20,776 nucleotides of DNA, from IMG/VR virus record IMGVR_UViG_3300007871_000010, positions 1 to 20,776 of that record; one strand, 5' to 3'. This DNA comes from a virus. Shown piece by piece: positions 3 to 18,405 of this stretch. The notes under the pieces are model-generated. The model saw nothing but the letters and a program-made list of their open reading frames with translations, had not been told where the DNA came from and ran no database searches. The translations under genes were made by a program, and so were the position numbers. Numbering within the stretch: position 1 is the first letter of the stretch; every line of letters starts with the position of its first letter.

Positions 3-209
3 AATATTCACTGGATTGCAGCAATAATCACGTTATTTGCCAAGTATCTGGTCGATTGCAAGGATAAATGGGGTCACATTGCCCATGTAGTAAGTGAACT
101 CCTGTGGATATACGTGGCATTACAGACGAAAATATACGGTTTACTGTTAATAGCCATACCTACAATTTTACTTAGTCTGTATAACTTCTGGAAATGGAGC
201 AGGAAATGA
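3..209 (+). CDS. Small membrane protein, 5' truncated
   Basis: An open frame enters from the left edge and encodes 68 residues up to a TGA. It contains two hydrophobic stretches: one near the start (IAAIITLFAKYLV) and one near the end (YGLLLIAIPTILLSLYNFW) followed by a basic tail WKWSRK, so it looks like a small integral membrane protein with its C-terminus in the cytoplasm. The second segment, ending in an aromatic NFWKW, recalls PnuC-type small phage membrane proteins, and a holin is also possible; I cannot decide between them. Its stop overlaps the next start (ATGA at 206-209), so the SPFH gene downstream is probably translationally coupled to it. The upstream start lies outside the window. 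Confidence 0.55.
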   Translation, partial: NIHWIAAIITLFAKYLVDCKDKWGHIAHVVSELLWIYVALQTKIYGLLLIAIPTILLSLYNFWKWSRK

Positions 210-775
210 ACTGGCTAACTCAGTTACTGGACCGATTGTTATGCTGGATACCGAGAATTTGGCTTGTATCTCCGGATGAAGGTGGTGTGCGAGTAACTCT
301 GGGGAATCGAGTGCATCTTACTTCATCTGGTTGGTATGTTTACTGGCCCTTGATTCAAGAGATGACGAAAATAACTGTAACGCCGCAGGTTGTAGATCTT
401 CGTGTGCAGAGTGTGTTGACGAAAGATAGCCGGGATATGTGTTTTGGCGGAGCGATTATGTACCGAATTCGTGATGCACAGAATGCGTTATTGAAAGTGC
501 AGGATTATGATAAAAGTTTACAGACCCTCGCTCTGGGAATTATAAGCCGATATATTAGTAAGGTAGAATCAATTGAACAATTAAATATATCGCAGATTGA
601 AGCCGAGATACTTGAAGGCGTGAAGAAGGACGCACGTGGATGGGGGCTGGAAATAATGCGTGTATATATCACTGATCTGGGTACAACGAAGAATATCAGA
701 TTACTTACCGATCAATCAATTACAGGAGTGCAAACCTATGACTATGCCGCTGCAGGAAATTCATCAGGTTTATAA
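206..775 (+). CDS. SPFH/band-7 (stomatin/HflC-like) domain protein
   Basis: A 189-residue protein. The N-terminal 20 residues are hydrophobic and Trp-rich (LLDRLLCWIPRIWLV), suggesting a monotopic or hairpin membrane insertion. They are followed by SPDEGGVRVTLGN and SGWYVYWPLIQ, which match the stomatin/HflC pattern of an exposed strand, Gly turn and 'PG-hy-hy-hy-P' segment. Then come the core strands TPQVVDLRVQSVLTKDSRD and AIMYRIRDAQNAL and the helix that ends the SPFH domain. The protein stops soon after and lacks the long coiled coil that drives ring assembly in flotillins and HflK. I chose the ATG at 206 rather than the one 12 bases upstream because GGAG (196-199) sits six bases before it and it forms an ATGA overlap. 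In bacteria, SPFH proteins scaffold membrane microdomains and restrain proteases such as FtsH. Family call is good; role in the phage is inferred. Confidence 0.8.
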   Translation: MNWLTQLLDRLLCWIPRIWLVSPDEGGVRVTLGNRVHLTSSGWYVYWPLIQEMTKITVTPQVVDLRVQSVLTKDSRDMCFGGAIMYRIRDAQNALLKVQDYDKSLQTLALGIISRYISKVESIEQLNISQIEAEILEGVKKDARGWGLEIMRVYITDLGTTKNIRLLTDQSITGVQTYDYAAAGNSSGL

Positions 776-944
776 TGCGTTAAAGATAAAGGACATGTCC
801 AGAGAAGCATTTGTAAAGCAGGTGCAGGATCTGACGAGTCAGAGTGGCGTACAGCGAGATCTCGGAGTGATAATGGGTCGGAAACGGGCAGAAGCAAGGA
901 ATAAGATGAATATTGACAGGGCGATTGAAAATGGCCGAGGGTGA
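738..944 (+). CDS. Small helical hypothetical protein
   Basis: A 68-residue product, mostly helical, charged and without membrane segments. A longer reading from 660 is possible, but AGGAG at 724-728 lies nine bases before the ATG at 738, which fixes this start. The first 38 bases overlap the end of the SPFH gene in another frame, and the last 14 overlap the next Cys-rich ORF. I do not recognise a family. The C-terminal half is rich in Arg and Lys (GRKRAEARNKMNIDRAI), so nucleic-acid or acidic-protein binding is conceivable but not shown. Confidence 0.6.
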   Translation: MTMPLQEIHQVYNALKIKDMSREAFVKQVQDLTSQSGVQRDLGVIMGRKRAEARNKMNIDRAIENGRG

Positions 945-1077
945 AAAATATATAGAATTTTTATGTGCTTGTAATAAGAAACCTTGCGAGGGAGCCTGTC
1001 GGAAAGAACACCTGTATCGTAAAAGGAAGGACCTTGAAATATGCCCCGCAGCTTACGAGCAGAAACTGAGAAAATGA
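931..1077 (+). CDS. Cys-rich mini-protein, possible zinc binder
   Basis: A 48-residue ORF. Five cysteines cluster as CAC at 12-14, C19, C23 and C38, within a basic Lys/Arg-rich protein. Such spacing suggests a small metal-binding fold, though no standard zinc-ribbon spacing (two CxxC pairs) is present. The start overlaps the end of the preceding gene by 14 bases, and GACAGGG around 915-921 may serve as a weak ribosome-binding site. It resembles in size and style the Cys-rich ORF after the large terminase (4834-4974), but the sequences are not obviously alike. Function unknown. Confidence 0.5.
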   Translation: MAEGEKYIEFLCACNKKPCEGACRKEHLYRKRKDLEICPAAYEQKLRK

Positions 1078-1187
1078 AAAAACTTATAGAGGATATGCGA
1101 GTTCAATTACTTTATATGCAGTTTGATTTAGAAGCTACACGTAGGGAAAGAGAATATTTTAAAAGACTACTTCAGGAGAAAAAATAA
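1041..1187 (+). CDS. Small coiled-coil hypothetical protein
   Basis: A 48-residue ORF from the ATG at 1041, or 37 residues from the in-frame ATG at 1074. GGAAGG at 1024-1029 is 11 bases before 1041, while 1074 has no good site but overlaps the previous stop as ATGA. The sequence is almost continuous charged helix (AETEKMKKLIEDM, then LEATRREREYFKRLLQE), consistent with a short coiled coil. The stop overlaps the next start as TAATG. No family recognised. Confidence 0.5.
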   Translation: MPRSLRAETEKMKKLIEDMRVQLLYMQFDLEATRREREYFKRLLQEKK

Positions 1188-1525
1188 TGGATAGTGGGTA
1201 TCAAATTGATAATAGTGGTAATAGAGTGGGTGCTGGAGTGCAGGCCATAAATCCTGTGGCTGCATCAGGACAGACAGTAGCAACTGGTACAGCCGGTGAT
1301 GATAAGACGTTTACAGTTGTGGGTGGTGCAAGATACGTATTAGTTGGAATGGGTACAGGAATTTTAGCAAGCATAACTGGTGTAACATCTACGGCAGCTA
1401 ATATAGAGTGGTTTGCTGGTGCAAATGTTCCTATGGTTGTTAAGATACCAGAAGGTAAAACGACTTTATATCTTGAAGGTGATACGAGTACAAAGAATGT
1501 ACATCTGGCACGGCTTGCTGATTAA
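1187..1525 (+). CDS. Small beta-rich protein of unknown function
   Basis: A 112-residue protein rich in Gly, Ala, Thr and Val with predicted alternating beta strands (FTVVGGARYVLVGMG, IEWFAGANVPMVVKI, TTLYLEGD) and no signal peptide. The pattern suggests a compact beta sandwich, as seen in phage decoration or fibre-tip proteins, but there is no diagnostic motif. AGGAG at 1174-1178 lies eight bases before the ATG, which also overlaps the preceding stop (TAATG). It is immediately upstream of the serine protease gene. A structural role is a guess from composition. Confidence 0.6.
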   Translation: MDSGYQIDNSGNRVGAGVQAINPVAASGQTVATGTAGDDKTFTVVGGARYVLVGMGTGILASITGVTSTAANIEWFAGANVPMVVKIPEGKTTLYLEGDTSTKNVHLARLAD

Positions 1526-1536
1526 AAAGGATTAAA

Positions 1537-2256
1537 ATGAGTAAAGATCCGAAGAAATGGCTCATAGCAGTAGCTATAGCTGTGATATTCGCTGCATGTT
1601 TTCCAACAATATACAATAGACCTAAACCAGAACCTGTAACTTATCAGGTTAATTTAGTTTCTCTGATTCGGACCGTTGACCCATCAGTTGTATATGTGGA
1701 AGCTGTAGATGAGTATGGCGACCGTCTTTGGTCTGGATCAGGAGTGATAATTTCTTCTGATGGATTAGTTCTTACAGCCGGGCATGTAATTGACGGGGCT
1801 GTGGCATTTAAAGTTATATTACCCGATGGTCAAGAATTCTGGAGTAATAAGAGTTATTTATCTAATATAACAGATGTCGGCCTAATCCAGATTGATGCAG
1901 AAAAACTACCATTTTCCCATATAGGAAATTCAGATAATTTACGCAAGGGTGAAGAAGTTTTTATAATTGGCTCCCCGCTTGGTTTTAATTTATTTAATAC
2001 AGTAACTGCTGGAATTATATCTGGATTAAAACGTGATATTGATTTTTTTGGTGAGAAATTAATGATTCAAAGTGATTCTGCTTCGTTTTCAGGGAATTCA
2101 GGTGGTCCTGTATATAATATGCAAGGTCGTGTGGTCGGAGTTTTAGTTGGCGGGTATGGTTATTACGATAATATTAGCTTGGTAATTCCTTCTAATATTT
2201 GTCGACTTGTGGTAAATATTTATAAAGCAGAAAGAGAATTAGAAAATGCCAGCTAA
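1537..2256 (+). CDS. Membrane-anchored trypsin-like serine protease (HtrA/DegP-type)
   Basis: A 239-residue chymotrypsin-fold protease. Residues 8-22 (WLIAVAIAVIFAACF) after a lysine-rich N-terminus form a signal anchor; Cys21 sits in a poor lipobox (FAAC), so lipidation is possible but doubtful. The catalytic triad is complete: His83 in LTAGHVI, Asp113 in TDVGLIQI, and Ser188 in SGNSGGPV with the oxyanion-hole GNSGGP. The SGSGVIIS strand before the His and the IGSPLG loop are typical of HtrA proteases. The PDZ domain found in DegP/DegS is absent, as the protein ends about 50 residues after the Ser. AAGGA at 1527-1531 precedes the ATG. The active site should face the periplasm or outside. It could cleave envelope or superinfecting-phage proteins, or process virion parts; a prohead-protease role is less likely given the membrane anchor. 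Confidence 0.88.
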   Translation: MSKDPKKWLIAVAIAVIFAACFPTIYNRPKPEPVTYQVNLVSLIRTVDPSVVYVEAVDEYGDRLWSGSGVIISSDGLVLTAGHVIDGAVAFKVILPDGQEFWSNKSYLSNITDVGLIQIDAEKLPFSHIGNSDNLRKGEEVFIIGSPLGFNLFNTVTAGIISGLKRDIDFFGEKLMIQSDSASFSGNSGGPVYNMQGRVVGVLVGGYGYYDNISLVIPSNICRLVVNIYKAERELENAS

Positions 2257-2320: not shown

Positions 2321-2530
2321 ATTCCTGCAAAATCGAAAGCTCAACAGCAAGCGGCTGGAATAGCTCTTGCTGTGAAAAAAGGTAAACTCCCAGCATCTAA
2401 ACTTAAAGGCGCGTCAAAACAAATGGCAAAAATGGGTACGAAAAATTTAAAACATTTTGCTGAGACAAAACGTAAAGGGTTGGTTAAGAAGGTTCAGAAA
2501 AAGTTGGACAAAACGTTCAGAAAGAAATAA
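2321..2530 (+). CDS. DUF3008-like small basic protein with ATT start
   Basis: A frame open from 2303 to a TAA at 2530 encodes PAKSKAQQQAAGIALAV, then KLKGASKQMAKM and HFAETKRKGL, which matches my recollection of the small DUF3008 family, whose members begin MPAKSKAQQ. Here the codon at the Met position (2321) is ATT. AAGGAAGG at 2301-2308 lies about 12 bases upstream. No ATG, GTG or TTG exists in frame before 2372, and starting there would delete the most conserved part. So either AUU is used, as in infC, or one base is wrong or mutated. The predicted protein is 69 residues and very Lys-rich. In the same frame upstream, 2246-2269 reads MPAKRHK then stop. The stop overlaps the next ATG (TAATG). 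Confidence 0.6.
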   Translation: MPAKSKAQQQAAGIALAVKKGKLPASKLKGASKQMAKMGTKNLKHFAETKRKGLVKKVQKKLDKTFRKK

Positions 2531-2910
2531 TGGCTAAGAAAAAACCTTTAAAAATTAAAAAAGCTGGTCAGTTGTTAAGTCAGTTTATACGTAGTATTGC
2601 TCTTGAAGAAACCGAACTTATAAAAGGTGCTGATGGCGAAGATCAAATGGCTTCTAAAGCTGAGGCTTTGGCCCGTCTGATGTGGCAGCGTGCGTTGGGT
2701 TATGTGGAACAAAGAATTGAAAAAGGTGGATTAGTAGATATTACCCATCCACCTGATAAAGTATTGATGAGTATGATTTTTGATCGGATGGAAGGTAGAG
2801 CACCGTTGATGAATCCAGAAAAAGGAAATAAACGGACGATTGCAGATAGAGTTTCAGAACAAGGAAAGAAACGATTAAATAAATTAGCAAAGAGTTCTTT
2901 GAAAAGTTAA
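2530..2910 (+). CDS. Putative terminase small subunit
   Basis: A 126-residue basic, helical protein directly upstream of the large terminase and separated from it by one base. The middle part (ALARLMWQRALGYVEQRI and VLMSMIFDRMEGRAP) resembles small phage proteins that precede TerL and carry a 'DRMEGRxP' segment. The strongly basic N-terminus (AKKKPLKIKKAG) and basic C-terminus would suit DNA binding. The start overlaps the DUF3008-like stop (TAATG). The assignment rests on position and composition; no classical helix-turn-helix could be confirmed by eye. Confidence 0.5.
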   Translation: MAKKKPLKIKKAGQLLSQFIRSIALEETELIKGADGEDQMASKAEALARLMWQRALGYVEQRIEKGGLVDITHPPDKVLMSMIFDRMEGRAPLMNPEKGNKRTIADRVSEQGKKRLNKLAKSSLKS

Positions 2911-2911
2911 T

Positions 2912-4831
2912 ATGGGTAATATAGCGATTGAAGAACAGATCAAGCCAAAGTTACGGGAGCCTTTTCCTGGTACTCCACGATTTTGGGAGGATCCAAAAAC
3001 CGGGATATTAGTACCAAAACAGGAAACTGAAAATTTTCAGTGGCGAAAGAAACTTTTACAAGAGGCCGAAAATGATATAATTCTCCAAAATGATTTGATG
3101 GCAGCTTGTAAACAATCTTTGCTTTTTTGGATTAATGCTTTTGTGATGACTTTTCACCAATTCGATGTGTGCCCGGAGACGGGAAAACGTATTGAAGCTG
3201 TGAATGCACACACGGCATTTATTACGTGGGAAGTCCAGGATGATCTTTTTGGTCAATTTGAAAAATCTCTTGAAACCGGTAAAGATATTCTGATTAATAA
3301 GACACGTGACATGGGAGCAAGTTGGTGTTGTCTGGCATATTTACATTGGCTCTGGTTATTTAGACCAGATAGTCAATTACTTGAAATGTCACGTACTGAG
3401 GATTATGTAGATAAAGCCGGTAATATGAAGGCTTTATTTCAACGGCATGATTATATCAATAACTGGTTGCCAGAATGGATGCTTCCTCCACAATGTCACT
3501 ATGGAGAAAAGAATCGTACTAAAATGCACTTACTTAATGTGGAGAATGGTTCTTGCATAGATGGTGAATCAACGACAGAACATGCCGCATCAGGTGATAG
3601 ACGATTAATTGGTTTACTTGATGAGTTCGCTAAAGTTGAAAACGGAAAATTAATGCGTAGTGCTACAAGAGATGCTTGTTATATGCGTATTGTAAATTCA
3701 ACTGTAGCCGGGCCTGGTACTGAATATAGTATGTGGAAAAATTCAAAACAGATAAAGGTTTTTCCATTAATGTTTTGGGATCATCCGGATAAAGGTAAGG
3801 GGCGTTATGTACGAAAACATCCGGTGACGGGTATTTGGGAAATTCGTTCTCCCTGGTTTGATGAGGAGGAAAAAGTTAGATCTCCACAAGAAATGGCAAG
3901 AGAAATTTTAGCCCAAGATGTTGAATCTGGATCACAATTTTTTACTCCTGGTAATGCTGATAGACATATTGCTTTTTTCGCCTGTGAACCTAAGACCAGA
4001 TGGAACGTAGATTTCAAAAAAGGTGTTGCAAATGATCAGATCCCAAAAATAATTCGTAGTAGGGTTTTATCAAAAGTAAAATTTAATCGTGATAAAAATG
4101 GTCCATTACGAGTGTGGACTAATTTACTTATGGGTCGTCCTGATCAGTCTAAGAATTATATTTTTGGTATTGATCTTAGCAAAGGAATGGGGGCGTCAAA
4201 TTCTGTTATTTCAATCAAATGTAAAGAGACGGGTGAGAAAATTGCAGAGTGGCGTGATGCGAATACTCCGCCGTATGAAATGGCCAGGATTGTTACCGCA
4301 ATAGCTCTCTGGTGCGGTGGCCGAGGAGATAAAAAACTTCCGTTTTTGAAATGGGAGATGAATGGTCCTGGATGGGATTTTGGTCGTTTAATTGTTAAAG
4401 AATTCCATTATCCCTATTATTATAGAGATCATCAACCAGGACAAATCCGGAATAAGAAATTAAAGAAATATGGGTGGCATGCAAATTCATCATCTAAAAA
4501 AGAATTATTGTTATTATATGATAGATTATTAGCTCATGGCGGATATATTAATCATTCAAAATGGGGACTTGAAGAATGTAATATATATGTTTGGTATGAT
4601 GATGGTGGAATTGGACCGGCATATTTAGTTAAAGAAAGTCAGGCAGCAAAGAAAACTCATGGTGATGTTGTTATTGCTGATGCTTTGACACTTGAAGATA
4701 AAGAGATTCCTAAAATGAAATTTAAAAGCCCAAATGCTCCAGAAGGGTCATTTGCCCGCAGGCGAAAAATGGCATTAGAGAAGAAAAGAAAGAAAACAGG
4801 TTGGAAACAATCGTTTGATTTCGGTGTATAG
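2912..4831 (+). CDS. terL: Terminase large subunit (ATPase and nuclease)
   Basis: A 639-residue packaging motor. The ATPase has an atypical Walker A at residues 129-138 (NKTRDMGASW, the phage variant of the 'K-x-R-x-x-G-x-S' loop) and a Walker B LIGLLDEF at 232-239 with Asp237/Glu238. SRTEDYVDKAGNMK (160-173) follows the usual post-Walker A strand. The C-terminal RNase H-like nuclease begins at FGIDLS (Asp421), continues through LKWEMNGPG (Glu482), and ends with HGDVVIADAL (Asp585/Asp590), giving a full set of acidic residues. It cuts concatemeric DNA and pumps it through the portal encoded downstream. Length is slightly above average for the family. No strong ribosome-binding site precedes the ATG at 2912, so coupling with the upstream gene is likely. 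The polypeptide has no frameshift. Confidence 0.93.
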   Translation: MGNIAIEEQIKPKLREPFPGTPRFWEDPKTGILVPKQETENFQWRKKLLQEAENDIILQNDLMAACKQSLLFWINAFVMTFHQFDVCPETGKRIEAVNAHTAFITWEVQDDLFGQFEKSLETGKDILINKTRDMGASWCCLAYLHWLWLFRPDSQLLEMSRTEDYVDKAGNMKALFQRHDYINNWLPEWMLPPQCHYGEKNRTKMHLLNVENGSCIDGESTTEHAASGDRRLIGLLDEFAKVENGKLMRSATRDACYMRIVNSTVAGPGTEYSMWKNSKQIKVFPLMFWDHPDKGKGRYVRKHPVTGIWEIRSPWFDEEEKVRSPQEMAREILAQDVESGSQFFTPGNADRHIAFFACEPKTRWNVDFKKGVANDQIPKIIRSRVLSKVKFNRDKNGPLRVWTNLLMGRPDQSKNYIFGIDLSKGMGASNSVISIKCKETGEKIAEWRDANTPPYEMARIVTAIALWCGGRGDKKLPFLKWEMNGPGWDFGRLIVKEFHYPYYYRDHQPGQIRNKKLKKYGWHANSSSKKELLLLYDRLLAHGGYINHSKWGLEECNIYVWYDDGGIGPAYLVKESQAAKKTHGDVVIADALTLEDKEIPKMKFKSPNAPEGSFARRRKMALEKKRKKTGWKQSFDFGV

Positions 4832-4833
4832 AA

Positions 4834-4974
4834 ATGGCAACTAAAGAACAGTGTAAAAAGTGTGTTCACAGAAAGAAAAAAGATTGCCCGATATTAAAAG
4901 TCCTACATGAAAAAGGTGTTAAGGGTGAAAATATATTGCGGGCAAAATGTATAAGTTATAAAGATAAAAGATGA
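4834..4974 (+). CDS. Cys-rich mini-protein between TerL and portal
   Basis: A 46-residue ORF two bases after the TerL stop, whose own stop overlaps the portal start (ATGA). It contains C7xxC10xH12, C18 and C39 in a very basic context, so it may be a small zinc-binding protein. No family was recognised. Its position between the two packaging genes, with overlaps on both sides, supports it being translated, even though a clear Shine-Dalgarno sequence is missing. Confidence 0.5.
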   Translation: MATKEQCKKCVHRKKKDCPILKVLHEKGVKGENILRAKCISYKDKR

Positions 4975-6770
4975 GAGAATTGAGAGTTGAATCAGAATAT
5001 CCCCGTAAAATTGCCTTAGTCGTTAAGAACGGATTCCAAAGGTTAAGACGATATAGACGAGCAAGGGCCATGTTTATTAAGCAGTATGTAGGCCAGTATT
5101 ACGCATCCTCAAAAGGTATAACCGGAGATGAACCCATAAATCTGATTTTTCATGCTATACGTACCCTGGTCCCGAATCTTGTAATGAAAAATCCGATTAC
5201 TAAGGTGACAACTGAAGATGTGAATCAAGAGGATTATGCGTATCTACTTGGCCTTGCCCTCGATTCTATAGACAAGAAAATCAAATTAAAAGAAATTTTA
5301 CGTGGTGGAATAGTCGCTGCACTGTTTGCGATGGGGATCTTTAAAACCGGCATTGCGGCCAGTGGACAAGTAATTACATGGGGTGATCTCCAGATAGATC
5401 CTGGTCAGGTTTACAGTGATCTTGTAGATCTTGATGATTTTGTAATTGATCCTTCATGCAGGGCTTTCGATAAGGCGGCGTTTCTGGGTGATCGAAATAG
5501 GGTTCCACGTCAATTATTACTGGATGATAATAATTGTGATCATGATTTGGTTATGAGATTACCACGATCTACACATCCGGATGCCAAAAATAAAATTGAA
5601 AAATTAACACAATCAAATCTTAGTAATATTGAAATGTTTGAATTACAGGATTTTGTTGATGTAGTGGAATTATTTGTTCCAGAAGCTAATGTAAGTCTAT
5701 TAATTCCTGATCCAAATGTTATTATATTTGATGATTATATAAGGGGCGTTGACTTTTATGGCCCAAGTGAAGGACCATATACTACGATGTCACTAACTCC
5801 ACCGGTTCCCGGAAACCCATATCCAGTGGCTCCTGTAGGTATTTGGCATGACCTACATGTGATGGCTAATAAATCAATGGTAAAAAGTATGGAACAATCT
5901 AATCGTCAAAAGGACATTGGTATATATGATCCTGCTGGAGCGGATGAAGCTGAAGATATTCGTACAGCAAGAGATGGTGACATGATTGCTGGTAATCCGG
6001 ATTCAGTGAAAGTTGCATCATTCGGTGGGCAAAATCGTGATAACGCATCCATGCTAAGTCAGATGCAGATTTGGTTTAATTATATGTCCGGAAATCCAGA
6101 TCAAATGGCCGGATTAAAATCAGATGCACGAACAGCTACACAAGCCCAGTTGCTTCAGGCGAATGCGAATGTTACAGTAGAGGACATGCGTGATATAATT
6201 TATGATATTGCTGCTGAGCTTAATAAGAAAATGGCCTGGTATTTGCATACTGATCCATTGATTGATTTACCATTAACAAAACGCCGAGCCGGTGGTAGAC
6301 AGATACAACTACGATTAACACCGGAACAGCGTAGCGGTGATTTTCTTAATTTTGCATTTAATCTTAAAGCCAGGTCAATGTCACGGCTTGACCCTACTAT
6401 AAAATCTAAACGTATGATGGAATTTGCCACTAATGTGATTCCGGGTGTTATGACATCCGGGCAAATAGCTACGCAAATGGGCGTGGCACTTAATGTAGTA
6501 AGGGTACTTACAGATCTTGCTGAAGAACTCGATATTACAGAGACAGCTAAGGATTGGTTCCAAGATCCCGAATTTATGAATCGTATTAAATTAATGATGG
6601 CTATGGGACCACAAAATGCTGGTAAAGCTGGAATGGGGTCGTCACAGGGTATACAACAACAAGGTGGTTATCCTGGACAAAGGTCAGTTTCAAGCTCACA
6701 GAAAGAACAGAATCAAAGTTTTCAAATGGGAGCTAATGAATCGCAATCGGCTAATCAAGGGGTTTATTAA
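4971..6770 (+). CDS. Portal protein
   Basis: A 599-residue protein that follows TerL and precedes the scaffold and capsid genes, as portals do. Recognisable portal features include the N-terminal helix-rich region with INLIFHAIRTLVPNLV (about 57-72), the VDLDDFVIDPSCRAFDKAAF segment around residue 160-180 typical of podovirus-like portals, and the long central helix region (ARTATQAQLLQANANVTVEDM, near 385-405). The last 55 residues are Gln/Ser/Gly/Asn-rich and probably disordered. Twelve copies would form the ring that docks TerL and the head-tail adaptor. Start at 4971 forms an ATGA overlap with the Cys-rich ORF. Confidence 0.85.
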   Translation: MRELRVESEYPRKIALVVKNGFQRLRRYRRARAMFIKQYVGQYYASSKGITGDEPINLIFHAIRTLVPNLVMKNPITKVTTEDVNQEDYAYLLGLALDSIDKKIKLKEILRGGIVAALFAMGIFKTGIAASGQVITWGDLQIDPGQVYSDLVDLDDFVIDPSCRAFDKAAFLGDRNRVPRQLLLDDNNCDHDLVMRLPRSTHPDAKNKIEKLTQSNLSNIEMFELQDFVDVVELFVPEANVSLLIPDPNVIIFDDYIRGVDFYGPSEGPYTTMSLTPPVPGNPYPVAPVGIWHDLHVMANKSMVKSMEQSNRQKDIGIYDPAGADEAEDIRTARDGDMIAGNPDSVKVASFGGQNRDNASMLSQMQIWFNYMSGNPDQMAGLKSDARTATQAQLLQANANVTVEDMRDIIYDIAAELNKKMAWYLHTDPLIDLPLTKRRAGGRQIQLRLTPEQRSGDFLNFAFNLKARSMSRLDPTIKSKRMMEFATNVIPGVMTSGQIATQMGVALNVVRVLTDLAEELDITETAKDWFQDPEFMNRIKLMMAMGPQNAGKAGMGSSQGIQQQGGYPGQRSVSSSQKEQNQSFQMGANESQSANQGVY

Positions 6771-7225: not shown

Positions 7226-7561
7226 ATGGTGACACATAGATTTATTTGTAATAGATGTAAGATATTTATTGAGGACACTACTACAAAGGGTATTCATAAG
7301 TGCCCAGAATGTGGTGGGGATGCGGCTTTAGATTGTAAAATTGCTATTCATGGCAATTATAAGCATCCAATACATTCTGATGCCCTGGCGATTAGTCCGA
7401 CCCAAATAGCCGAGCATGAAAAATTATTTCCAAATATTAGGTTAGATAAAGCATGTCGTCCAATATTTGAAAAATTTTCTGATCACGAAGCGTATATGAA
7501 AAAGTGTGGGATTGTTAAGCATCGGCAAAGGATAAAGTCTAAGGGGAAAAGAATAGCATGA
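7226..7561 (+). CDS. Zinc-ribbon phage protein (FmdB-like N-terminus)
   Basis: A 111-residue protein starting at the ATG at 7226; a longer in-frame reading from 7157 would lie entirely inside the preceding gene. The N-terminus has two CxxC pairs, C8NRC11 and C26PEC29 followed by GG, a zinc ribbon of the FmdB/rubredoxin-like type. The rest contains HSDALAISPTQIAEHEKLFP and RPIFEKFSDHEAYMKKCG, a segment I recognise from conserved uncharacterised proteins in portal-to-capsid regions of podovirus-like phages. A role in head assembly or as a zinc-binding regulator is possible. The stop overlaps the HNH start (ATGA). Confidence 0.7.
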   Translation: MVTHRFICNRCKIFIEDTTTKGIHKCPECGGDAALDCKIAIHGNYKHPIHSDALAISPTQIAEHEKLFPNIRLDKACRPIFEKFSDHEAYMKKCGIVKHRQRIKSKGKRIA

Positions 7562-8028
7562 AACATTGTGGTTGTTGTAAAATCTGGAAAAAAGAAATCG
7601 AATTTTCAAAAGATAAATCTGCGTCAGATGGTTTAGATAGAGTGTGTAGGAAATGTAGAAGTAAAAAAGCAAAAATATATCGAAAGAAACATCCTGAAAA
7701 AATAAAAGCGATTAATAGAAAGAATTATTTAAAAAATAGAGTGGCCCGTATTGAATATTCAAGAAAATATGGGTATGAATTACATTTAAATAGAATATAT
7801 AACATTTCCTTAGAAACTTATGATCAGATGTTTAAGGATCAAAATGGTAATTGTGCAATATGTGGATTGCCGCAATTGATGAAACGGTTGGCAGTAGATC
7901 ATGATCATAAGACAGGTAAAATTCGAGGATTACTTTGTACTAATTGTAATACAAAACTTCGAGTAATAGAAGATAATGAATTTGTTGAAAAAGCAGAGAT
8001 ATATCTTAAAGCAACTGTTAAATTATAA
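7558..8028 (+). CDS. Endonuclease VII-like HNH nuclease (first copy)
   Basis: A 156-residue nuclease. An N-terminal zinc module uses C4/C7 and C30/C33, followed by a Lys/Arg-rich helical linker. The C-terminal Endonuclease VII domain (PF02945-type) has YDQMFKDQNG, C99AIC102, the catalytic D114HDHKTGKIRGLLC motif and C127xxC130. T4 endonuclease VII resolves branched DNA, but free-standing copies of this type scattered in structural gene clusters often behave like homing endonucleases. It lies between the zinc-ribbon and scaffold genes and interrupts the usual portal-scaffold-capsid run. Start overlaps the upstream stop (ATGA); the downstream scaffold keeps its own strong site AGGAG at 8041-8045. 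All metal and catalytic positions are intact. Confidence 0.85.
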   Translation: MKHCGCCKIWKKEIEFSKDKSASDGLDRVCRKCRSKKAKIYRKKHPEKIKAINRKNYLKNRVARIEYSRKYGYELHLNRIYNISLETYDQMFKDQNGNCAICGLPQLMKRLAVDHDHKTGKIRGLLCTNCNTKLRVIEDNEFVEKAEIYLKATVKL

Positions 8029-11340: not shown

Positions 11341-11883
11341 ATGAAAACCAGAATTTGTTCAAAATGTAAAAAAGAATTGCCGTTGACTTTTGATTATTTC
11401 TTTAGAAGCAAACGTGAAAAAGGTGGTTTTATATATTCTTGCAAAAAATGTAGTTATAGGCGCAAGAAAAAATATAGAAGGTCTGAACAATCAAGAATTA
11501 TCCATAAAGAATATAATAAAAAATATCGGCAATCTTTACATGGTAGTAGAGTAAGACAAGAGGGTAGATTGAAATATAAGCACGGTTTAACTCTTGAACA
11601 ATACGACCAGATGTTTGAACAGCAAGATGGTTTATGTGCAGTTTGTAGAAATATAAATGGAGACGGTCGAAGATTAGCGATTGATCACAATCATCAAACG
11701 GGTAAAATAAGAGGTTTGTTATGTTTTAGGTGTAATACTTGGCTTGGCATTTTAGAAAATAAAGAATTTACTATAAATGCTAAAAAGTATTTACGTGAAT
11801 TTGACCCTAACTCAGCCCTTCTTTTGGATATGGAAGGGCAGAGTGGGGTCTTAAACCCATGTCCAAAAGGAGAAATAGAATAA
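11341..11883 (+). CDS. Endonuclease VII-like HNH nuclease (second copy)
   Basis: A 180-residue protein with the same layout as the first HNH gene: zinc pairs C6/C9 and C34/C37, a basic linker, then the Endo VII core with YDQMFEQQDG, C99AVC102, catalytic D115HNHQTGKIRGLLC and C128xxC131. Outside this core the two are quite divergent. After KKYL, where the first copy ends within a few residues, this one carries about 25 extra residues (FDPNSALLLDMEG onwards, ending CPKGEIE) encoded by DNA that looks like the former leader of the adaptor gene, including a hairpin and the AAGGAG site. AAAGGA just before the ATG is its own ribosome-binding site. All catalytic residues are present. Confidence 0.85.
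   Translation: MKTRICSKCKKELPLTFDYFFRSKREKGGFIYSCKKCSYRRKKKYRRSEQSRIIHKEYNKKYRQSLHGSRVRQEGRLKYKHGLTLEQYDQMFEQQDGLCAVCRNINGDGRRLAIDHNHQTGKIRGLLCFRCNTWLGILENKEFTINAKKYLREFDPNSALLLDMEGQSGVLNPCPKGEIE
11815..11839 (+). other. Hairpin inside the 3' end of the HNH gene
   Basis: Arms GCCCTTC (11815-11821) and GAAGGGC (11833-11839) pair perfectly with an 11-base loop. A second small hairpin, GGGT/ACCC at 11846-11858, follows, and then the AAGGAG of the adaptor gene. No T run follows the stem, so it is more likely an mRNA processing or translation element than a terminator. Confidence 0.55.
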
Positions 11884-17337: not shown

Positions 17338-18405
17338 ATGAAGATAGGACACTTCGTCCAATTCGCTCCACATGCCGCAGGAATCTATGAAACAGCAAGG
17401 GATCTAATTTTAGCAGAACGAAAAGTCGGAATAGATTCTCAAATGATTGATTATGGAGCGGGTAAACCAGAAAATTCTTCAAGAGTTTGGTGTAAAGATG
17501 GTGATATTGAAACAGTTTCACCGGAATGGGCACTTAAAGCGGATATATTGGTACGACATTCAGCCATTCCAAAAAGGATTTATGAAAAAGGTATACCTAT
17601 CGTAATGTGCCTGCATGGAGCACCTGAATATAGTTTTTTACTTGAACATACGGGCAAAACTCGTACATTAAAAGAACTTATTGTCTCACATGAAATATTA
17701 AAATATAAAGCATGCGTAACGTTTTGGAAACAAAATATTTTTAATTGGGAAATAATGTTACCCGGTGCGAATATTTGTTATTGTCCGCCACCTGTTGATT
17801 TGGATAAATTTAATCCCAATGGAAAAAAATTTAAATGGGAATCAAAAAAAACTGGTGATTTTAATATTGTAATAACAAATGTATGGCGAACAGAATATGT
17901 TACGCCATATTCCGTTCTATTTGCCGCAGCAAAATGGGTAAGAGACAAACATCCGTCAGCAAGGGTACATATATTTGGAACACCAAAGGACAATAAAAAA
18001 TATCCTAAAAATGACGGACCAGTAAACAGGACTCTTTTAGCTCTCCAAAAAGCGGATTTAGTGGGAAGTTGTTTTCCTGCGGTTCCTTTTTTAGATGAAG
18101 TTTATAGAGCGGCTGATATGATAGTGACGCCACATGTATTGGCGTCCAGAACAGTTAGAGAAGCAATGGCATCAGGGTGTCCCATTGTAGCGGCAACTGG
18201 GAATCCATATACACCATATACTGCACATCCAAAAGATATAGATGGATTTGTTGATGCAATTGAAAAATGTTATCAAGATATAAAACATGATAGACAAACA
18301 GTTCATGATATAATACGTAAGATAGCAGAAAAAGAATTTAATATGGAACAAGTCGGTAAAACAATGAAAGAAATATTCGAGAAAATTTTAATTGGGGAGA
18401 AATAA
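17338..18405 (+). CDS. GT-B fold glycosyltransferase (GT4-like)
   Basis: A 355-residue enzyme. The N-terminal domain begins with KIGHFVQFAPHAAGIYETARDLILAERKVGID, the beta-alpha opening and Gly loop of GT4 enzymes. The C-terminal domain begins around NIVITNVWRTEY and ends with LDEVYRAADMIVTPH (252-266) and TVREAMASGCPIVAATG (272-288), equivalent to the nucleotide-sugar 'E-x7-E' region; here only the second acidic residue, Glu275, is evident, the first position being replaced in HVLASR. AGGAG (17327-17331) six bases before the ATG gives strong translation. It transfers a sugar from a nucleotide donor; the acceptor is unknown. Setting among tail-fibre genes suggests virion or host-surface glycosylation. 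No signal peptide or membrane segment, so it is cytoplasmic. Confidence 0.82.
   Translation: MKIGHFVQFAPHAAGIYETARDLILAERKVGIDSQMIDYGAGKPENSSRVWCKDGDIETVSPEWALKADILVRHSAIPKRIYEKGIPIVMCLHGAPEYSFLLEHTGKTRTLKELIVSHEILKYKACVTFWKQNIFNWEIMLPGANICYCPPPVDLDKFNPNGKKFKWESKKTGDFNIVITNVWRTEYVTPYSVLFAAAKWVRDKHPSARVHIFGTPKDNKKYPKNDGPVNRTLLALQKADLVGSCFPAVPFLDEVYRAADMIVTPHVLASRTVREAMASGCPIVAATGNPYTPYTAHPKDIDGFVDAIEKCYQDIKHDRQTVHDIIRKIAEKEFNMEQVGKTMKEIFEKILIGEK

Follow-up and report, generated by a model that had tools for sequence, protein, structure and literature searches.

A stomatin-like protein and an HtrA-type protease in one phage late block

We analysed a 20,776-base virus record (IMG/VR record IMGVR_UViG_3300007871_000010, positions 1 to 20,776; hereafter the window), which carries a block of late genes comprising terminase, portal and then scaffold-like and capsid-like genes, assigned mainly by position. 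Ahead of the terminase, and on the same (+) strand, lie open reading frames (ORFs) for an SPFH/Band_7 protein of 189 residues (206..775; alternative ATG at 194) and for a membrane-anchored, PDZ-less HtrA-type serine protease of 239 residues (1537..2256). The 761 bases between them are occupied by small, overlapping, co-directional ORFs, the last of which ends 11 bases before the protease start. The original prediction, made from the letters alone, had described precisely such an arrangement, in which an SPFH gene and a gene for a complete-triad protease with an N-terminal anchor are joined by overlapping small ORFs; Pfam searches and alignment confirmed it. The window is near-identical to part of the 49,254-base record IMGVR_UViG_3300008517_000002, and in all counts below it is represented by a near-identical record, L007.

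The SPFH protein belongs to the SPFH/Band_7 superfamily on two grounds, a sequence match above the curated cut-off (Band_7, expectation value (E) 4.4e-21 across residues 21-165; 76.2 bits against a cut-off of 23.6) and an SPFH fold in the predicted model, which has a mean predicted local distance difference test score (pLDDT) of 90.7. The top solved fold in Foldseek was human stomatin (E 5e-14), with HflK/C and QmcA close behind, and the sequence profile also placed HflK/C among the nearest relatives. Residues 2-12 form an amphipathic helix, and neither the model nor a Kyte-Doolittle profile of the window protein contained a segment of transmembrane strength. The chain stops just past the SPFH core, its last ~20 residues being modelled at low confidence, and the stomatin-type C-terminal coiled coil and oligomerisation region is absent. 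The most divergent SPFH protein in our set, that of L093, is 30% identical to the window protein. Members of this SPFH subfamily in L089/L169 and L081 are encoded among replication-like genes instead of late genes.

The protease matched Trypsin_2 (E 3.1e-29) across residues 67-202, and no PDZ domain was found in a Pfam scan at E up to 1. Its catalytic residues His83 (1783-1785), Asp113 (1873-1875) and Ser188 (2098-2100) were invariant in all 34 proteases aligned, which were picked from 52 matches. In the predicted model (pLDDT 93.8) the protease domain is followed by a single helix at the chain end, and the best Foldseek matches were the catalytic domains of DegP, DegQ, HtrA1 and related proteins at 26-39% identity; the protein therefore has the chymotrypsin-fold domain and His-Asp-Ser triad of the HtrA/Deg proteases and lacks their PDZ domain. 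By a Kyte-Doolittle cut, a hydrophobic N-terminal segment was present in all 78 distinct proteases judged complete, identical and truncated sequences having been left out. A lipobox-like pattern occurred in 3 of the 78 (L019, L052 and L155), with a few more possible by eye; from its sequence, the SPFH-linked protease of L155 looks like a lipoprotein. Proteases with an export-type N terminus work outside the cytoplasm or at its membrane.

The two genes recur together in related phages

Among 50,697 phage records, the window SPFH protein gave no tblastn match at E 0.1 and the portal gave no match; the terminase had distant matches only, in 131 records (all below 60% identity, one covering 80%), and the protease had partial matches in 24. 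The window therefore represents a phage group without a close relative among these records. Relatives were gathered from IMG/VR, where a terminase scan yielded 75 loci and a second scan 313 relatives, 80 of which were kept, so that the survey is partial; further loci were added through an SPFH scan and other terminase scans. The 42 SPFH loci of this subfamily fell into 35 clusters at 90% identity, second loci from one record being skipped both here and in the context cuts described below. Terminase relatives were also found in genome assemblies, on four contigs of metagenome-assembled genomes (MAGs) of 31-51 kb with differing labels; these may be mis-binned phages, and hence we assign no host. 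When genomes were scanned with the SPFH alignment, none of 39 pattern matches was confirmed; the scan used one short degenerate pattern and missed the SPFH genes on L093-L095, later reached by a terminase scan, so that bacterial or prophage relatives may exist.

Recurrent co-occurrence of the two genes, the absence of which had been named beforehand as a ground for refuting the proposal, was found: the protease lay on the same strand and at the same locus as the SPFH gene in 31 of the 35 clusters, with a median gap of 561 bp and 22 within 1 kb, and in the same record in 33. Three gene orders were represented, SPFH-protease-terminase in 18 clusters (including L099, a 44-residue SPFH fragment at a contig end that is also counted among the 35), terminase-protease-SPFH in 9 and protease-SPFH-terminase in 4. 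In a divergent terminase lineage the spacing shrinks to 2 bp in L154, where the protease leads, and to 9 bp in L155, where SPFH does, and in L168 the two ORFs overlap, subject to the choice of start. Close relatives that share the two flanking genes either have the protease between them (L114, L123) or lack it there (L119, L124, L126); the protease is therefore an accessory gene.

A Cpn10/GroES-like gene (PF00166) is an intermittent third member of the block. It lies between the SPFH and protease genes in six clusters (L013, L064, L070, L088, L090 and L095) and near the pair in two more (L051 and the L157/L159 group); examples of the gene in the block, whatever its place, are L013:7155-7424, L093:6025-6372, L159:11321-11581 and L064:2068-2388. 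It was present in 15 of the 48 records examined, with 14 over the family cut-off, and some of these records had no SPFH or no protease gene.

Association and correlated divergence of SPFH and protease

In records of at least 30 kb (L099 being excluded from this table), a protease was present in 13 of 14 with SPFH and in 11 of 21 without (Fisher p 0.013; p 0.0096 without L092, a protease-positive record scored SPFH-negative on its 21.9-kb locus only). Restricting the count to records reached by terminase scans only gave 6/6 against 10/20 (p 0.035). When loci were instead selected by the length of sequence available upstream of the terminase, the protease was present in 20/21 SPFH-positive against 31/43 SPFH-negative loci with at least 3 kb (p 0.027), and in 17/18 against 25/35 with at least 4 kb (p 0.049). 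The Cpn10-like gene, used as a control, showed no link to the protease (12/15 with Cpn10 against 26/33 without; p 0.62).

Pairwise distances told a related story. Across 24 phages the SPFH and protease distances were correlated (r 0.452, or 0.449 given terminase; none of 2000 shuffles as high), whereas either protein against terminase gave r 0.058 and 0.125. With the portal included (n=23), the SPFH-protease correlation was 0.465 (p 0.0005) and either protein against terminase or portal gave 0.03-0.07, whereas terminase and portal distances correlated at 0.976. In L090 the SPFH protein and the protease group with one clade and the terminase with another, as read from trees without their support values. 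The two genes are thus usually kept together through rearrangement and gene exchange, which suggests joint action on the envelope of the infected cell.

The chief alternative is that SPFH and protease are two unrelated accessory genes in a hypervariable cargo region before the terminase, which have separate jobs and travel together through location only. A number of observations favour this explanation or otherwise weigh against a functional pair. The protease is the commoner partner and, as the 30-kb table shows, occurs in about half of the large records without SPFH; the region is rich in variable small ORFs and holds the Cpn10-like gene; and in most relatives both genes lie within one small variable pre-terminase region, so that short distances between them are partly expected and closeness alone is weak evidence. 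The strictest context cuts lose significance, with a protease in 14/15 SPFH-positive against 19/28 SPFH-negative loci at 5 kb or more upstream of the terminase (p 0.061) and 9/10 against 14/23 at 6 kb or more (p 0.10). The association is thus moderate and varies with the cut, and the co-occurrence statistics ignore the relatedness of the genomes. Within sub-sets, moreover, both genes follow the terminase too: SPFH-terminase, SPFH-protease and protease-terminase correlations were 0.66, 0.52 and 0.44 in the main clade minus exchanged lineages (n=14), 0.71, 0.50 and 0.54 in phages with the 112-residue gene described below (n=11), and 0.55, 0.67 and 0.27 in phages with the small terminase (n=19). 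The full-set signal therefore comes largely from exchange between lineages, and some of the terminases in the trees are fragments. Four clusters also depart from the linked arrangement. In L081 and L161 the protease is encoded at another place in the record, far from SPFH; no protease was found in L089, a 12-kb fragment with SPFH amid replication-like genes; and none was found in the L093 locus, where MAG-wide matches fell only on C65 and C294, past base 100,000 in each, and on C333 (114,422 bases), none of which can be the 47,236-base L093 phage contig, so that these matches belong to other contigs.

Co-travel through location alone nevertheless fits poorly with same-strand linkage preserved in three gene orders, with the 2-bp and 9-bp spacings of the divergent lineage, with full-set distances that follow each other and not those of the terminase or portal, and with the lack of association of the Cpn10 control. 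We regard it as unlikely, although it is the strongest competitor to a functional pairing of SPFH and protease.

Capsid comparisons do not point to a virion-assembly role

A second alternative places the pair in virion assembly, either with a prohead-type protease or with an SPFH-protease platform for portal or prohead assembly, the Cpn10-like protein serving as capsid chaperone. Prohead proteases usually lie after terminase and portal, and the nine clusters with the order terminase-portal-protease-SPFH have the protease in that place; by eye, the next genes are scaffold-like and capsid-like in L087 and L159, while L168 has a capsid-like gene there, and the Cpn10-like gene adjoins in some. If the protease matured the head, processing of the capsid would be expected to track its presence, and in an indirect test we found no such tie. 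The capsid-like protein, assigned mainly by position (the PHROG head match was only E 0.094), had a median length of 368 residues (323-378) in 52 loci with the protease and 363 (361-376) in 11 loci without, all of the latter being main-clade loci and loci with less than 4 kb upstream not being scored as negative. Its start was alike inside the main clade with or without the protease, and its first 45 residues were identical between L114, which has the protease, and L119 and L126, which do not. A scaffold-like gene was present in 57 loci with and 13 loci without the protease, and 10 of the 21 large SPFH-negative records lack the protease altogether. To our knowledge, the HtrA-like catalytic domain corresponds to no known prohead-protease family. 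On the strength of the capsid-like starts and lengths, together with export- or anchor-type N termini in all 78 proteases, we rejected a prohead protease as the main explanation, and we consider an assembly role in any of these forms improbable. SPFH itself was also considered as the scaffold gene and rejected, given that, by eye, the window, L087 and L159 each have another, acidic gene of scaffold-like character ahead of the capsid-like one.

Very improbable, finally, is a host-factor decoy, in which the truncated SPFH protein joins or caps rings of host HflK/HflC or stomatin and shifts FtsH activity while the protease does something separate: the bare domain without coiled-coil tail, the presence of HflK/C-FtsH among the closest solved complexes and the lysogeny role via HflC suggested for phage CSP3 (PMC10269572) are in its favour, but it leaves the linkage to the protease unexplained, and lysogeny control through HflKC, or any lysis-lysogeny role, is made less likely by the lack of a Phage_integrase match in any of the 25 long records searched, other integrase types not having been searched.

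Genes around the pair

The SPFH start at 206 is overlapped (ATGA) by the stop of an ORF at 3..209 (+), the 3' part of a gene for a small hydrophobic, PnuC-N-like protein with about three hydrophobic segments by eye, which matched NMN_transporter (E 1.7e-7) at model positions 3-68 of 175 and whose full-length version in L007 (2202-2423) has 73 residues. PnuC-N-like small ORFs also overlap the SPFH ORF in L013 (6240-6458) and L094 (4232-4432). The product is a possible further membrane partner or a possible holin.

In the gap, all on the + strand, follow a small ORF at 738..944 (possible starts at 660, 738 and 744, the latter two being likely), whose family occurs in the pre-terminase region of many relatives; a small cysteine-containing ORF at 931..1077 (or from 913) and a 48-residue ORF at 1041..1187; and a 112-residue protein without assigned function at 1187..1525, whose family occurs in relatives both with and without the protease. 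This last family is common before the terminase, and two copies were matched in L025, L047 and L055.

Downstream of the protease lie a probable small terminase (2530..2910, +), so named from its place directly before the large terminase and matched 74 times in the 81 sequences searched, the large terminase (2912..4831, +) and the portal (4971..6770, +), the last on weak matches (SU10_portal, E 1.1e-5, under the cut-off; PHROG portal, E 1.3e-5). The terminase often shows up as two ORFs in the terminase-portal-protease-SPFH lineage (L084, L157, L158, L159, L160, L164, L168 and L170), possibly through an intron, an inserted element or a sequencing error. Within the late structural block of the window, by eye, 17338-18405 is glycosyltransferase-like, and 7558-8028 and 11341-11883 are two similar small cysteine-rich, HNH-endonuclease-like ORFs between structural genes. 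Candidate small membrane ORFs in L150, considered for a lysis cassette, gave no family match.

A proposed envelope module

We propose, with a probability of about 0.5, that the pair is an accessory phage module acting on the host cell envelope. Stomatin-type proteins organise membrane patches. The phage SPFH protein would sit on the cytoplasmic face of the inner membrane by its amphipathic N-terminal helix and form a stomatin-like assembly, while the protease would be tethered to the outer face of the same membrane through its transmembrane segment or, in a few relatives, probably through a lipid anchor. There the protease may cleave envelope proteins, with the SPFH platform gathering or limiting the protease or its substrates. 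Late expression is likely because both genes lie with terminase and capsid genes, and the most likely use would be to regulate envelope proteins at a late stage of infection; one possible case is that proteins needed by later phages are removed.

A reservation about this proposal concerns topology. With SPFH predicted inside and the protease outside the membrane, and with a lipoprotein-like protease in L155, a direct complex is uncertain. As the SPFH protein has no helix of transmembrane strength and the L155 protease looks like a lipoprotein, one should not presume a complex like that of FtsH with HflKC; the case of L155 suggests that the two proteins may share a membrane of action rather than bind via a shared transmembrane helix.

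The scaffold-plus-protease module of the original prediction is thus borne out in part: recurrent pairing, three gene orders and correlated distances speak for it, and it needs amending in that the protease is the core partner, frequently present when SPFH is not, and in that a Cpn10-like gene is an intermittent third member. Altered host envelope proteolysis and a block to superinfection, which the prediction also foresaw, would be putative effects of the pair. More tentatively, the pair could be a phage-built membrane proteolysis machine of SPFH, PDZ-less HtrA and sometimes a GroES-like protein, independent of the SPFH-NfeD and HflKC-FtsH systems and exchanged among phages as a unit that commandeers envelope proteolysis during infection. 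Cellular SPFH genes recur beside genes for membrane proteins, proteases among them, and the reason for this tie to proteolysis is still an open question. If our proposal is correct, phages would have arrived separately at the same partnership, using a tiny SPFH protein and an unrelated protease fold in a form compact enough for reconstitution, and this would show a phage route to control of the host envelope through proteolysis.

Comparison with known systems

The closest cellular counterpart is SPFH1b-NfeD1b (stomatin PH1511 with the serine protease PH1510), in which a stomatin-type SPFH gene likewise lies beside the gene for a membrane-bound serine protease; for SPFH-NfeD pairs, operon pairing and correlated trees are described in PMC2636767 and PMC3795559, and the latter also reports that the archaeal NfeD1b-type protease cuts the stomatin's own C-terminal region. 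The phage pair is not of this kind, since NfeD1b belongs to the ClpP-like proteases and uses a Ser-Lys dyad in PH1510, whereas the phage partner is a Trypsin_2/HtrA-type enzyme with His-Asp-Ser; the C-terminal region at which the archaeal stomatin is cut is missing from the phage SPFH protein, and the pair is phage-carried. HflK/HflC-FtsH and QmcA-YbbJ, among the nearest folds, share the tie of SPFH to membrane proteolysis. FtsH is, however, an ATP-dependent metalloprotease and YbbJ is NfeD-like, and the host HflK/C proteins are larger than the phage SPFH and have a transmembrane helix. DegS, DegQ, DegP and HtrA1 resemble the phage protease in the catalytic domain, and DegS also has an N-terminal anchor; the phage enzyme differs in being PDZ-less, phage-borne and SPFH-linked.

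Single components are known from phages. SPFH genes are recorded in the T4-like phages 44RR, Aeh1 and RB43, in DLP3 and DLP5, and in CSP3 (PMC1524935, PMC7326821, PMC5834331 and PMC10269572); for DLP3, a published table places SPFH at gene 69 and a serine protease at gene 3. The best viral fold match to the window SPFH protein was A0A6J7WFI0, a short 'HflK' of 173 residues from an uncultured Caudovirales phage, at 17% identity, and the window protein matched PHROG 200 at E 1.4e-9. Phage trypsin-like proteases are likewise known, for example in Rhizobium phage RHph_TM3_3_14B and as p036 of Rhizobium phage 16-3, and the window protease matched PHROG 11383 and 9683 at E 2e-37 and 1e-17. The best matches to it in phage records had 25-41% identity and all fell short of 80% query coverage, and several of the matching records resemble bacterial DNA (annotated degS, degQ or protease Do). 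For the linked SPFH-HtrA pair in a phage, our full-text searches, which covered open-licence PMC papers only, brought up no description. Trypsin-like and Band-7 domains do occur coupled in one bacterial protein among the VMAP conflict-system proteins (PMC7159879); those are multi-domain bacterial proteins with cyclase and HAD domains, whereas in the phages studied here the two parts are encoded as a two-gene pair.

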